The translations under genes and the position numbers were made by a program. DNA of 63,386 nucleotides from an uncultured Bacteriovoracaceae bacterium (GTDB lineage: Bacteria > Bdellovibrionota > Bacteriovoracia > Bacteriovoracales > Bacteriovoracaceae): positions 1-63,386 of the forward strand of contig CALHLC010000006.1 of NCBI GenBank assembly GCA_938034385.1. The letters are read 5' to 3'. Within the stretch, counting starts at the first letter, position 1. Each line of letters begins with the position of its first letter. Below, one piece after another: positions 57,266-63,231 of the stretch. The notes beneath the pieces are model-generated. The model ran no database searches. It worked only from the letters and a program-made list of their open reading frames with translations, and had not been told where the DNA came from.

Positions 57266-58513
57266 ATGAAAACTCTAATTTTATTTTGTTTAATCCCTCT
57301 TTTAAGCTTTTCAGCTATTTGGGAACCTCTAAATTCTTGGGATGACCTTGAGATTGACTGGGAGACGAAGTTCTCTGAATGGATGCAATCTGATTCAGTT
57401 AACAAGAACCTCTTTTATGATGAAACAAGCGTCTATGGAAAAATCAAAGTCGATTGTGCTGATGTAATGTATTTAATGAGAGCAATTTTTTCTTATGAAA
57501 ATTCTCTAGATTTTAAAGTAATGCATCCATTATTTGCTCACCGAAGAGTAAAAAAATATTACTCTCACTCAATGAGTAATTGGAACTATCTTCCACAAGA
57601 AGAAAAAGTTTCTGCTTTTCTTCGCTATCTTGCAGACAATCTAGGTACTGAAGCTTTAAGCAGAAATGATAGTTACTCTGTAGCACCTAAAGACATAAAG
57701 CCTGGTGATTTTTTTATGTTCAAAGCTTTTTTAGATCCAAACTCTAATATGGCAACCAGGCATTCTTTTATGATTAAAGATATAACTTCTACTGGTCTTT
57801 TTGATGTTATCTACTCTACTCAAAGAGCTAGAGATAATGATAAGCCAATGTATTATAGAAAAAATCATATGTTTTCAGCACCATTGGCTCCAACAATTAC
57901 TGGCTGGGGATTTAAGAGATTTAAAAAGCCAAGTGAATATCAAATGAACAATTCAAACATAACTGCTTATGATGACTCTCAATACGATATAGTAAGTAAT
58001 AATAGCGGTGCATATTTTTTTAAATATGTTCAAAGTGTTTTAAAACAATCTAATGAAACTCCTGAAAATAAAGTAGAGAGACTTTTTACTGATTTATGTC
58101 AAAGACTCGATGATAGAGTTGAAGCTGTAAATGATGCGACCATTTATAGAAAAAAAATTGATTATAGATGTATGAATGCAAGCGAGTATGATATTTACTC
58201 CACTCCTTTGAGAGACAGTAGAATTAAAGCTGCCTTTGAAGATGTAGAAATATATCTAAATACTCTTGATGATACTTTCGTTAATTCACGATTTTTACAA
58301 ATGCTTAGAAACATATTCGATCAAGGTTTATCTTCTATTGATCTAAAAGAGTTAGAGATTGCTTGTCCAATTCAAATTAAAGATGATGAAACCATGGACT
58401 TGAATACATTTTATTCAAAACTCATCAATGATGAAATTTCAAATAATCCAAATGATCCTATAAACGCAAGATGGGGTTTTGAACCAAGTACATCAAATTG
58501 TAGAAAGTATTAA
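57266..58513 (+). CDS. secreted NlpC/P60- or papain-like candidate (paralogue)
   Basis: A 415-residue exported protein (MKTLILFCLIPLLSFSA signal), paralogue of the product at 8179. Shared elements: AIW...NSW near the mature start, VDCADVMYLMRAIFS with Cys64, KPGDFF (145-150), ATRHSFMIKDI with His166, Asp180 where the paralogue has His, GWGFKRF, YSTPLRD and NPNDPINARWGF near the end. The conserved Cys, His and third polar residue fit a papain-like amidase or peptidase. AGGAAG precedes the ATG. Single gene divergent from prs. Confidence 0.85.
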   Translation: MKTLILFCLIPLLSFSAIWEPLNSWDDLEIDWETKFSEWMQSDSVNKNLFYDETSVYGKIKVDCADVMYLMRAIFSYENSLDFKVMHPLFAHRRVKKYYSHSMSNWNYLPQEEKVSAFLRYLADNLGTEALSRNDSYSVAPKDIKPGDFFMFKAFLDPNSNMATRHSFMIKDITSTGLFDVIYSTQRARDNDKPMYYRKNHMFSAPLAPTITGWGFKRFKKPSEYQMNNSNITAYDDSQYDIVSNNSGAYFFKYVQSVLKQSNETPENKVERLFTDLCQRLDDRVEAVNDATIYRKKIDYRCMNASEYDIYSTPLRDSRIKAAFEDVEIYLNTLDDTFVNSRFLQMLRNIFDQGLSSIDLKELEIACPIQIKDDETMDLNTFYSKLINDEISNNPNDPINARWGFEPSTSNCRKY

Positions 58514-58518
58514 AAAAA

Positions 58519-58540
58519 AGGGAGACTTAAAAGCCTCCCT
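58519..58540. terminator. bidirectional rho-independent terminator
   Basis: AGGGAG and CTCCCT pair around a ten-base loop that extends by two pairs. On the minus strand it is followed by eight Ts, so it mainly ends the cysteine-rich lipoprotein gene; the plus-strand side is T-rich too. Confidence 0.75.
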
Positions 58541-58568: not shown

Positions 58569-61500
58569 TTATTGGCAAGTCAATCCATTTGGAGATTGAT
58601 ACGTTCCAGGTGCACACTTACACATTGGCATTCCATTTGCTCCTGTTGTTTGAACATACCCTGCTGGACATGATGGCACGCATTGACCATGACATAGAAT
58701 AGTTCCTGGTGCACAGACACAAGTATTACCTTGTCCTACCCAACCTGGGTCGCAAAGAATATTTCCACACGGAGCAGAGAATAACTGTCCTCCTCCATAA
58801 GCGATATATGCATCAATAATTGATTGATCATAGTTTTCATAATTACTATTCGTGCATACTTTAAACTGACATACTTTTGCAGGGTCTATTGTTGCATTAG
58901 GGTTATAATTAAACGCTTTAGGCTCCATACATCCTGGAGTTTCCCCACACTCATAATTATTCTCAAGCATTCCCGAAGGAGCTAAGCCTAATAAACTTAA
59001 GTGGCTTTTATAATTCGAAATATAAGCATTACAGTTTGGATTATATTTTTCTTTTCCTGCAATTCCACAACACTTAATATCACAAGATCCGTTTTCTTTT
59101 GATCCAAACTTAAGGTTCTTAACATAACTACCAGCTGCTGAGTAACTACAACCTAACTCTCTACCACAGATATAGTTTTGATCCGGCTGGTTTTGAGCAT
59201 TTAAGTTCATGCTATTTAATAAAGTTATATAGCTAATCGCTTTTTGTGAACAGCTTGCATCATAGTTTTCTCTTGTAGCATCACCACAACATCTAATGAT
59301 ACAACTTCCATCTTCTAGATTTGCTGCATTTCCTGGTTGTCCTGAAGCATCCACTAACCCTGGTTTTGAACATCCAAGCTTTCTTCCACAATTAAAGTTT
59401 CCGTTAACTGCACTAGCACTTAATCCCATACTATTTAGAGCTGCAAGATAACCACTAACTGCAGACTGGCAAGTAGCATCGTAGTTTTCATATCCAGGCA
59501 TAGAACAACACTCAATCTGACAGCTACCATTTTCGCTAGTTCCAGGAGCATAGTTCTGTACAAGGTTATTATTATAGTTACAACCTAAGTCTTTCCCACA
59601 ATTTGCATTTTCATTGATCGTCCCAGAAGGAGTCATTGAACCAAGTAGGTTTTCATAACCAGTTATAGCAGCCTCACATCCAGCTTGATAATTTTCTTTA
59701 GATTGATCCGAACAACATGCAATATCACAACTTCCATCTTCGCTCGTAGCTCCTGGTGTTTTATTTGTAACATATTGGTTATAAGTACAACCAACTTTTT
59801 GACCACAATTCTTTTGAGTATTATGTGGACCTGCTCCAACTATTCCTGGTGGTAAATAAGAATTATAAGCCGTTACGGTTGATAAACATTTATCATCATA
59901 GAATTGATAACCTTCAAGTGAACAACATTCTATTTTACAAGATCCATCTTCAACGCTCATAGAATTATAATTCGTTACTCTTGTGTCATTATAATTACAT
60001 CCTTTAGGGTTTCCACAATTATTAGTAAAAGAAAAACTTCCAGTAAAAGCAATTCCTTGACTTGCAAGTCCTGCTTTATAGGCATTCCATGAATTTATAC
60101 ATTCTTGATCAGTTCCAAATTCATAACCTGTATCACATTTTCTACATGAGAAACTACAACTACCATCATCTACTTGAGCTGCTGCATTGAAATTACTTGC
60201 TCCTGCAAACATACACCCTTTTACTCTTCCACAATTATAGCTAGAGTCAGGAACTACTGAAGAAATAAGTCCTGCATTACTAAGTATCCCCATGTAACTA
60301 CTAATACTTGTTTGACATGCTGGGGAGTAATTTTCATAACCCTCTTGAGCACAACATTTAATTGCACAACTTCCATTTTCACTTGTTCCAGGAGCATGAT
60401 TCGTAACACCAAAGCCGTTATAGTTACAATCAAGTTTTGATCCACAAGAGAAATTATTATTAATATTTGCTGGGTTTGTACTTCCAGTGTATCCACTTAT
60501 TACTTGCTGACATGCAGGATCATACTTTTCTGTTCCAACCTGACCACAACATTGAATAATACAACTTCCATCTTCTTGAGCAGATGGTACAAAGTTTTTA
60601 ACATACTCAGGTTTAGGGTTCCCTTGATAGTTACAACCTTTTTTAGGTCCACACTTATAAATATTTAAACTTCCATTTGGAGAAAGACCCATTGATCTCA
60701 ATCTAGAAATATAATTATTTTTTGCTGGGATACAATCTTTTGTATACCCAACCCTACTTGGATCAGAACAACATTCTATATTACAACTTCCATCTTCTAT
60801 TGTTGTTGCATTGTAATTTGTTATATATGGATTTTGAAAATAGCATCCTTTCGTTTTTCCACAATTAAAACTTGTATCCTTAACTCCAGAATGTGCTAAC
60901 CCTGCTGTGTCTAAGATTCTATCATATTGGTCGATTGCCTCCTTACACTTAGGATCATAATTTTCTTTTGTAGGGTCGGCACAACATGAAATATTACAAC
61001 TTCCATTCTCAACTGTTTTAGGTTGGTAGTTGGAAACATACGGACTTTGAAAATAACAACCTGGCCCTGGGAATGTACATGCATTATCTATAAACTTACC
61101 AGTTGGTGTTAACCCAGCATGTGTTAGGCTTGTTGAATACCCAGTAATTATGCCCTGGCAATTCGAATCATAATTTAATGCTCCAGCTTGAGCACAACAA
61201 GAAATATCACAACTTCCATCTTCTTGAGAGTTATTTAAAGTGTTTGATACATATTGATGATTTAAAGCACACCCTAACATCTTTCCACATTGATGAGCTT
61301 TATTAATTGAACCGGTGTGAGTAAGTTGAGAGCTCTCTAAACTAGCAAGATATGTGTTTATCATACCTTCACAGTTTGGATTATAATTTGCTGAGTTATA
61401 TGTAGAACAACAATTAAAAACACAGCTCCCATCTTCTACTTGAGCATCAGCATCATAGTTTGTTGCATCTTGAATCATACAACCTTTTTTATAAAGACAT

Positions 61501-62222
61501 TCTCTTTCAAATCCTCCTGTATGCTTTAAGCAACCTGTAAATGTTGCTCTATAGGCATTTAAATCTGAAGTTAAGTCAGCACTATAGTCTGCATATTTAG
61601 GATCATTACATCCTTTAAATGCACAAGTCCCATCATCATATAATGATTCAGTATTTCCATTTGAAACAAAAGCACTTGTAGAGTTACAACCTTTTATTCT
61701 CGTTACACATTTACTCTGATCATGAGAGATAGTAGACCCTGTAATATTATCAGCATATTCTTTCATCGCTAAATAATCCCAATGTTCTGCATAGTTTGGA
61801 TCACTACATCCAGTAAAATAACATGCTGCTGATTTATCAGAAGATGTAATTACGAAGTTCGAAGCACCTGAATGTGAACAACCTTCTCCATACTGAAGTT
61901 GAGTTATACATTTTTCAGCATCATGCGAAATTTTACCTCCATATAGATTTGTATAAGCTCTATAGTCCATAACTTTTTTATATTCAGCAAAACTCTCATC
62001 CATACAAGCACTAAAATTACATGCACCTGGTTCATTAGAAGTAATTTCATCCGAAAAGTTTGAAGCTTCATTGTGAATACATGTTTTTTCACAAACCAAA
62101 GATGATGTCTTTCCAATATCTTTTGATTCATCGCTACTTGTTGCAGGATCATAAAGATTTGCATTATTAGAACATGAAAATAAAATAAATAATGATAAAA
62201 AATAAATTAAGAGAGTCTTCAT
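58569..62222 (-). CDS. giant cysteine-rich repeat lipoprotein
   Basis: A 1217-residue lipoprotein (FILFSC, lipidated C17) built of about 16 cysteine-rich units of 65-80 residues: three diverged units at the N-terminus, twelve core units and one last unit. A core unit reads GC...(N)..., E(D/N)GSC.I.CC, ENYD..C, a helix with I..Y...L, then NCG...GC. The NY..A..DDGSC element matches the 'DPNATIDDGSC'-type repeats of marine bacterial surface proteins, here with an added CC pair. The C-terminal 75 residues are EGF-like (CDPGWVGQGNTC, CVPSCPAGY). Probably a long disulfide-stiffened rod on the cell surface; function unknown. Confidence 0.9.
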   Translation of the reverse strand: MKTLLIYFLSLFILFSCSNNANLYDPATSSDESKDIGKTSSLVCEKTCIHNEASNFSDEITSNEPGACNFSACMDESFAEYKKVMDYRAYTNLYGGKISHDAEKCITQLQYGEGCSHSGASNFVITSSDKSAACYFTGCSDPNYAEHWDYLAMKEYADNITGSTISHDQSKCVTRIKGCNSTSAFVSNGNTESLYDDGTCAFKGCNDPKYADYSADLTSDLNAYRATFTGCLKHTGGFERECLYKKGCMIQDATNYDADAQVEDGSCVFNCCSTYNSANYNPNCEGMINTYLASLESSQLTHTGSINKAHQCGKMLGCALNHQYVSNTLNNSQEDGSCDISCCAQAGALNYDSNCQGIITGYSTSLTHAGLTPTGKFIDNACTFPGPGCYFQSPYVSNYQPKTVENGSCNISCCADPTKENYDPKCKEAIDQYDRILDTAGLAHSGVKDTSFNCGKTKGCYFQNPYITNYNATTIEDGSCNIECCSDPSRVGYTKDCIPAKNNYISRLRSMGLSPNGSLNIYKCGPKKGCNYQGNPKPEYVKNFVPSAQEDGSCIIQCCGQVGTEKYDPACQQVISGYTGSTNPANINNNFSCGSKLDCNYNGFGVTNHAPGTSENGSCAIKCCAQEGYENYSPACQTSISSYMGILSNAGLISSVVPDSSYNCGRVKGCMFAGASNFNAAAQVDDGSCSFSCRKCDTGYEFGTDQECINSWNAYKAGLASQGIAFTGSFSFTNNCGNPKGCNYNDTRVTNYNSMSVEDGSCKIECCSLEGYQFYDDKCLSTVTAYNSYLPPGIVGAGPHNTQKNCGQKVGCTYNQYVTNKTPGATSEDGSCDIACCSDQSKENYQAGCEAAITGYENLLGSMTPSGTINENANCGKDLGCNYNNNLVQNYAPGTSENGSCQIECCSMPGYENYDATCQSAVSGYLAALNSMGLSASAVNGNFNCGRKLGCSKPGLVDASGQPGNAANLEDGSCIIRCCGDATRENYDASCSQKAISYITLLNSMNLNAQNQPDQNYICGRELGCSYSAAGSYVKNLKFGSKENGSCDIKCCGIAGKEKYNPNCNAYISNYKSHLSLLGLAPSGMLENNYECGETPGCMEPKAFNYNPNATIDPAKVCQFKVCTNSNYENYDQSIIDAYIAYGGGQLFSAPCGNILCDPGWVGQGNTCVCAPGTILCHGQCVPSCPAGYVQTTGANGMPMCKCAPGTYQSPNGLTCQ
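58900..61500 (-). repeat. about 12 protein-coding repeats of roughly 200 bp
   Basis: Within the lipoprotein gene the DGSC/NGSC-CC unit recurs 12 times with moderate divergence at the DNA level. The copies are spaced irregularly (about 190-240 bp), which shows amino-acid-level selection on cysteines rather than recent duplication. Confidence 0.8.
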
Positions 62223-62262: not shown

Positions 62263-62268
62263 ATTATA
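62263..62268 (-). promoter_or_regulatory. -10 element of the cysteine-rich lipoprotein gene
   Basis: A perfect TATAAT on the minus strand lies about 40 bases upstream of the ATG. TTTACA lies 19 bases further upstream, a loose fit. AAGGA stands before the ATG. Confidence 0.45.
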
Positions 62269-62345
62269 ATCATGTTCATAAGAAATTTGTAAAAAATATT
62301 TACTTGATAAAAGAGCTTCCATCAACCTTGGCTTCTTAACAAAAA

Positions 62346-62370
62346 AAGGGCCCTTACGTGAAGAGCCCTT
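62346..62370 (-). terminator. rho-independent terminator of the dockerin-like gene
   Basis: AAGGGC and GCCCTT pair, with three inner pairs and loop ACGTG. On the minus strand a run of seven Ts follows. Confidence 0.8.
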
Positions 62371-62403: not shown

Positions 62404-63231
62404 TTATGGTTTTTTTGGAGTTATATCTACACAGTCTCGCAAAGATCCAAAAACATCTTCCCATGAACTTTGACCAAGAATATATCTTTGGAATTTTACT
62501 AAATGCCTAGAACTTATAGGTGCAAACCTAGGCCCATCAGGCTTATTAGTTCGTTCAACATTATATGACTTTCCTGGGATTTTTTGGGTTGTTCCCAAAA
62601 TAATTTTTCGTATATGAACTAAGTCAATAGCAGAAAACTTTCCATCACTATTATAATCATAGTTACAATGCCTATGAATTCTTCGTCTATTCCAATCTAA
62701 ATTATCTTCTGGGTTTGAATCTTTTCCAGGAAATACAAAGTCAGAATCTTTCATTCTATATTCAAACATCTCTCCTGCAGAATCTGAATCAATAAGACAA
62801 TTCCACATAATGAATTCGTTTGTTCCTTTTTTAAGCTCCCTTAATATCCAAGTATCGCTTGTGAACATCCCTTTAGAAGGACGTTGGGAACCTTCAACCA
62901 AAGTTGAGTTTTCAGGACAAAAATATTTTATTTTGAGTGGGTCTATAGAATCTCTTTCTCCAACATTATGGATTGTTATTTTAAGTAATTGCTTATTATT
63001 TTCAACGACATCATCTCCTATCCAAAACTTCGTTTTATAATCTACTACTTCATCTTCTTTGGGCGGAGTATCACCACAAGTATCGCCATATGCTCCAGTT
63101 ACAATTTTCACATCTATAGATGTACCATTATTAGATGAATTCGAATCAGGTACGCCGAATTTCCAATCATTTGTTGAAATTGAATGCCTTAAAGTTTTAC
63201 CCTTAGCTTCAGATTCAACCTTACAATCCAT
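62404..63231 (-). CDS. dockerin-like protein, possibly N-terminally truncated
   Basis: A 275-residue protein whose C-terminal part holds a type I dockerin-like calcium loop, NYDYNSDGKFSAIDLVHIRK (DxNxDGxxxxxD), followed by IILG, and a diverged second copy (ISSRHLVKFQRYILGQ). The N-terminal part is beta-rich with four or more cysteines and could be a cellulose- or protein-binding-like domain. No signal peptide precedes it; the frame is open only to 63261 upstream, with no other start codon seen. Either the export signal is lost or the gene is a remnant. Function unknown. Confidence 0.7.
   Translation of the reverse strand: MDCKVESEAKGKTLRHSISTNDWKFGVPDSNSSNNGTSIDVKIVTGAYGDTCGDTPPKEDEVVDYKTKFWIGDDVVENNKQLLKITIHNVGERDSIDPLKIKYFCPENSTLVEGSQRPSKGMFTSDTWILRELKKGTNEFIMWNCLIDSDSAGEMFEYRMKDSDFVFPGKDSNPEDNLDWNRRRIHRHCNYDYNSDGKFSAIDLVHIRKIILGTTQKIPGKSYNVERTNKPDGPRFAPISSRHLVKFQRYILGQSSWEDVFGSLRDCVDITPKKP

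Follow-up and report, generated by a model that had tools for sequence, protein, structure and literature searches.

The window analyzed here, a 63,386-nucleotide stretch of DNA from an uncultured Bacteriovoracaceae bacterium, comes from a family known for predation on bacteria. Close to its end, on the minus strand (58569-62222, stop codon included), lies a gene encoding a protein of 1217 amino acids with orthologs of 75, 49 and 47% identity in three congeners. Comparison with the nearest congener indicates purifying selection (dN 0.16, dS 1.19, dN/dS about 0.14). A signal peptide spans residues 1-17 (62172-62222, minus strand) and, read directly from the sequence, ends in the lipobox LFSC (residues 14-17) with C17 as the lipidated residue; the 1217-residue lipoprotein of the original prediction is therefore confirmed. 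The congeners keep the lipobox. It is directly followed by SNNANLYDP, an instance of the motif C.NA.L[YF]DP common to many paralogs, and the +2 residue is serine, which under the Escherichia coli Lol rule, transferred here to another lineage, would predict sorting to the outer membrane.

The gene is flanked by hairpins. Just 3' of it is an intrinsic terminator-like hairpin (58519-58540, minus strand; nine pairs, five of them GC, and a T-run), of a kind whose number in the region is not above chance. A GGGCTC...GGGCCC hairpin with a T-run, found by eye at about 62345-62370, precedes the gene, so that the two together probably delimit a single-gene transcript. Upstream is also a weak promoter-like site, TTTACA-16-GATTAT (62266-62293, minus strand), matching at 9 of 12 positions, which is not above chance. 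The convergent gene at 57266-58513 (plus strand) encodes a 415-residue secreted protein of no recognized family and is retained nearby in each of the four genomes of this genus. On the other side, a 275-residue frame (62404-63231, minus strand) resembles the C-terminal part of a 767-residue DUF11 lipoprotein in genome G003 (L043:2781-5084), which has a dockerin-like hand; the frame lacks its 5' part at the contig end, reflecting either a rearrangement or an assembly break.

Architecture of the repeat array

The protein contains exactly 100 cysteines including the lipidated one (8.2% of residues), rather than the more than 100 first noted. Histidine is scarce (1.2%), and serine, glycine and asparagine are abundant. 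Parsing by cysteine spacing gives sixteen units, in agreement with the original estimate of about 16, followed by a cysteine-rich tail. Three four-cysteine units starting at residues 47, 114 and 178 (residues 47-246; 61485-62084, minus strand) follow the pattern C-x18-C-x4-C-x25..40-C. They are succeeded by twelve six-cysteine units of 69-74 residues each (residues 247-1096; 58935-61484, minus strand) with the pattern C-x18..23-C-x3-CC-x11-C-x21..27-C-x4..5, then by one more four-cysteine unit (residues 1097-1155; 58758-58934, minus strand) and by the tail with its nine cysteines (residues 1156-1217; 58572-58757, minus strand). The N-terminal units do lack the CC pair, as had been observed. 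This absence is not restricted to the N-terminus: the C-terminal unit also lacks it, and the CC present in 11 of the 12 six-cysteine units is replaced by CRKC in the seventh (residues 669-740; 60003-60218, minus strand).

The third cysteine of the four-cysteine unit aligns with the second cysteine of the CC pair. The six-cysteine unit is thus a four-cysteine unit plus two cysteines, namely the first of the CC and the one twelve residues past the pair. Across all paralogs and congeners, 117 units have both added cysteines and 132 have none of the two. A single unit has the first without the second, in a gene split into two frames on contig C116 of congener G001; 13 further units have another cysteine within that range without the CC, several of them being C-x2..3-C variants. 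The split gene (L053) is a paralog of the large type described below, in two overlapping frames, whether through a genuine frameshift or through faulty assembly. Such a paired gain is what a third disulfide would give, and we infer that the two added cysteines bridge each other.

Predicted fold of the units and the tail

The repeat is no product of chance: the window contains 11 copies of the core codon pattern of the unit, where 0.00 would be expected. It exists at the protein level only, TRF having detected no DNA-level tandem array of units. AlphaFold models three consecutive six-cysteine units, each containing a single helix, along with short strands (pLDDT 96.3, pTM 0.73), a confidence that may be raised by the alignment used, which consists of 89 unit-triplets with register-shifted units. 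The outcome is a confident fold rather than a disordered chain and, taken with the lipobox, bears out the description of a lipidated, folded, extended repeat protein. Searching the PDB with this model returned no credible fold, the top Foldseek match having E 1.2 and the top VIA match Z 3.0 over 51 residues; this does not prove that the fold is new. At the sequence level, neither the stalk nor the six-cysteine CC/helix unit is represented in Pfam, NCBIfam, PHROGs or PDB sequences, and our literature search, covering the DGSC string and cysteine-rich repeat lipoproteins of Bdellovibrio, yielded no description, which supports the original view of the unit as an undescribed one.

The last unit and the tail were modeled from an alignment of six sequences (pLDDT 81.9). 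The tail weakly resembles furin-like and EGFR cysteine-rich modules (R-spondin, HER2/HER3): by sequence it matches R-spondin-2 (E 0.0099), and by fold the EGFR-family cysteine-rich domains (Foldseek E 0.023, probability 0.99; VIA Z 5.2 over 41 residues, rmsd 4.5 Å). The two kinds of method agree, each below its accepted threshold, and Pfam gives no furin-like match for the tail. Small cysteine-rich hairpins converge easily.

Distribution and origin of the unit

A six-cysteine profile searched against 369 genomes of the phylum gives strong matches only in the four species of its own genus and weak matches in three other Bacteriovoracaceae genera. Homologs are present in all four congeneric genomes; neither of the two outcomes named at first as refuting the interpretation, a disordered chain or missing homologs, came about. 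The pattern sought across Bdellovibrionota belongs to one Bacteriovoracaceae genus instead of being spread over the phylum. The relatives are MAGs of uncultured bacteria. Among 84,980 GTDB species, multi-copy arrays of the core CC pattern occur only in Bacteriovoracaceae MAGs (MAG-111, MAG-64, R4_Bin_MAXBIN). Elsewhere in GTDB the pattern gives single hits, which sit in frames that are short or have no repeats and were taken as chance. The four-cysteine profile matches 6 of the 48 genera of the family; one of these other genera, G137 (L118, L127), has many four-cysteine DGSC units, with 17 matches.

One half of the unit has a wider range. The units, most clearly six-cysteine units 1 and 7, contain the half-module GC-x(4)-A-x-N[YF]-x(8-10)-[DE][DN]GSC with C1-x18-C2 spacing. 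The same half-module (GC.D..A.NY...A..DDGSC, C1-x18-C2) makes up DGSC repeats of Bacteroidota (e.g. L135, L137) that are unnamed in Pfam and NCBIfam. There, however, the copies seen have neither a helical half nor a CC pair, whereas every unit here has four or six cysteines, and the plan of a lipobox followed by a stalk was not seen among the Bacteroidota copies. In Bacteroidota the half-module (GC...A.NY...DDGSC) stands in tandem or alone, in places with two cysteines only, and these two-cysteine copies suggest that C1 and C2 form a bridge. A Foldseek hit among viral models (A0A218MM41, E 3.8e-5), annotated 'Secretion system C-terminal sorting domain', is read as a DGSC repeat of the Bacteroidota type. 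Plasmid and phage collections hold no match to the lipoprotein, and the CC array was not found in viral contigs. The likely history is that a widespread, unnamed DGSC half-module was extended by a helical half in Bacteriovoracaceae and then, in one genus, by a third, co-acquired cysteine pair.

Conservation and fixed array length

None of the 100 cysteines varies among the four genomes, whereas only 351 of the 1117 other residues (31%) are invariant. Units correspond by position to those of the three orthologs for 12, 10 and 11 of the 12 units. Given this unit-by-unit orthology and the absence of a DNA repeat, tandem-repeat slippage was rejected.

The number of six-cysteine units is exactly twelve in eight of the nine arrays that lie in one frame, the ninth (G002 contig C31) having fourteen by core count. 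Wherever one open frame covers the whole array, the C-xx-C variant occupies the seventh place. These arrays include a second tandem copy in G001 and G002 and the large paralog type, about 40% identical, typified by the one on contig C50 of the same genome as the window. A constant count and a constant seventh-position variant across paralogs imply that the array was duplicated whole and its length kept, and with both held fixed, reach or shape probably matters. The tail has nine cysteines in all four orthologs and one fewer in the tandem copies. As 99 non-lipid cysteines are an odd number, at least one must be unpaired or bridge between molecules; this, together with the nine-cysteine tail, leaves room for an intermolecular bridge.

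Paralogs and their heads

Further paralogs in the same genome lie on contigs C50, C35, C20 and C24. The C50 protein (L016:1591-8388, minus strand; 2265 residues) has the same 12-unit array, after which come CAGCH, a CxxCH motif of the heme-binding type, a dockerin-like EF hand and a C-terminal part that is again cysteine-rich. Contig C35 carries three four-cysteine paralogs in tandem. The C20 and C24 paralogs have a vWA-like domain bearing a DxSxS motif at the C-terminus, with Pfam scores under the curated cut-off; C20 also matches the Bdellovibrio MIDAS adhesin family NF052240 at E 1.8e-5, far below the cut-off of that model. Lipoproteins of this kind (L018:4129-6372 and L019:4514-6979, both plus strand), with four-cysteine DGSC stalks and C-terminal vWA/MIDAS-like domains, are probable adhesins. 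In genera G006 and G137, four-cysteine stalks are followed by a DxSxS-type region recognized by eye, a putative vWA head, and one G137 four-cysteine-unit gene continues into a vWA-like region.

The 1217-residue lipoprotein itself has no vWA match at E<=1 in Pfam or NCBIfam, which sets it apart from the MIDAS/vWA adhesins (NF052240, PF13519), and these libraries revealed no lectin or any other domain for binding in it. Bdellovibrio MIDAS adhesins such as Bd0875 are likewise Bdellovibrionota lipobox lipoproteins, and their vWA heads recur on the similar stalks of the paralogs; a DGSC stalk is not described for them in the accessible part of the published account (PMC11003981). Bd0875 functions where predator and prey are joined during invasion (PMC11003981). 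The suggested role as an adhesin or in prey contact is supported only indirectly, by Bd0875 and by the vWA/MIDAS heads on four-cysteine stalks of paralogs and relatives; the protein itself has no vWA match. It is the shared plan of a lipid anchor, a cysteine-rich stalk and a changeable head that suggests our reading, a stalk bearing a furin-like tip.

Proposed function and alternatives

Our preferred reading, which we consider rather likely, is an outer-membrane stalk of sixteen disulfide-stapled units with a furin-like cysteine-rich tip, probably serving surface contact. Its stalk part is well supported; bridge pairing, adhesion, prey contact, surface exposure and stiffness are what we infer. 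The mature protein would be a chain of small disulfide-bonded units ending in the short tip, apparently with some fifty bridges overall, each basic unit combining a DGSC half-module, closed by C1-C2, with a helical half-module. The twelve central units would have a further bridge, from the first cysteine of the CC to the cysteine twelve residues past the pair, stapling the helix to the DGSC half and making the stalk stiffer and more protease-resistant. Held off the outer membrane by the stalk, the tip could contact surfaces, probably those of other cells.

The unit would add an undescribed repeat to the known toolkit of bacterial surface stalks. Copy number often drifts in bacterial surface repeat proteins; a steady count of twelve whose variant unit is seventh each time is unusual for such a protein, and the fixed array makes a length-dependent function testable. 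The set of stalk-plus-head lipoproteins in a predator family may take part in contact with prey, alongside the MIDAS adhesins and the mosaic trimer fibers. A bolder version, which we regard as unlikely but worth stating, is a genus-specific disulfide-stapled ruler: a new small fold repeated twelve times at a selected length, with the seventh unit as hinge or dock and the odd tail cysteine linking two stalks into the predator's covalent contact fiber. Such a contact fiber would be unlike the MIDAS adhesins or mosaic trimer fibers of Bdellovibrio.

The lipobox alone leaves sidedness ambiguous, since an outer-membrane lipoprotein can face the periplasm. The rod could then point inward, as a stapled spacer or tether that props up the outer membrane or connects it with the wall or the inner membrane and, being of fixed length, serves as a ruler. 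The 12-unit length kept across paralogs would suit this arrangement, which we nevertheless think improbable: the G002 C31 array has 14 units, about 1200 residues of extended units may, from residue count alone, exceed the width of the periplasm, and paralogs bear vWA/MIDAS heads, a surface-contact domain in Bdellovibrio (PMC11003981). Nothing that tells specifically against a protease-resistant shield or decoy coat, defending against phages or predators, turned up, although those heads suggest binding within the family. For this quite improbable alternative, one can cite the very high cysteine content, the abundance of serine, glycine and asparagine and the several paralogs in each genome; the lack of matches in phage and plasmid collections weighs against it.

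A cysteine content of 8.2% could also mean metal binding or a redox-sink role for the cysteines in place of structural bridges, and the large C50 paralog does carry a heme-type motif. We give a metal- or thiol-buffering protein very little credence, as the cysteines are spaced as in disulfide-rich modules and were gained pairwise, histidine is scarce, a confident globular fold is predicted and the genome encodes a VKOR oxidase.

Each of the four genomes encodes a VKOR, which makes oxidative folding possible; DsbB was not detected in the genus. In the genome of the window, VKOR is fused to a DsbA-like domain (contig C47; L150/L158), and in G002 a DsbA-like lipoprotein adjoins the tandem copy.
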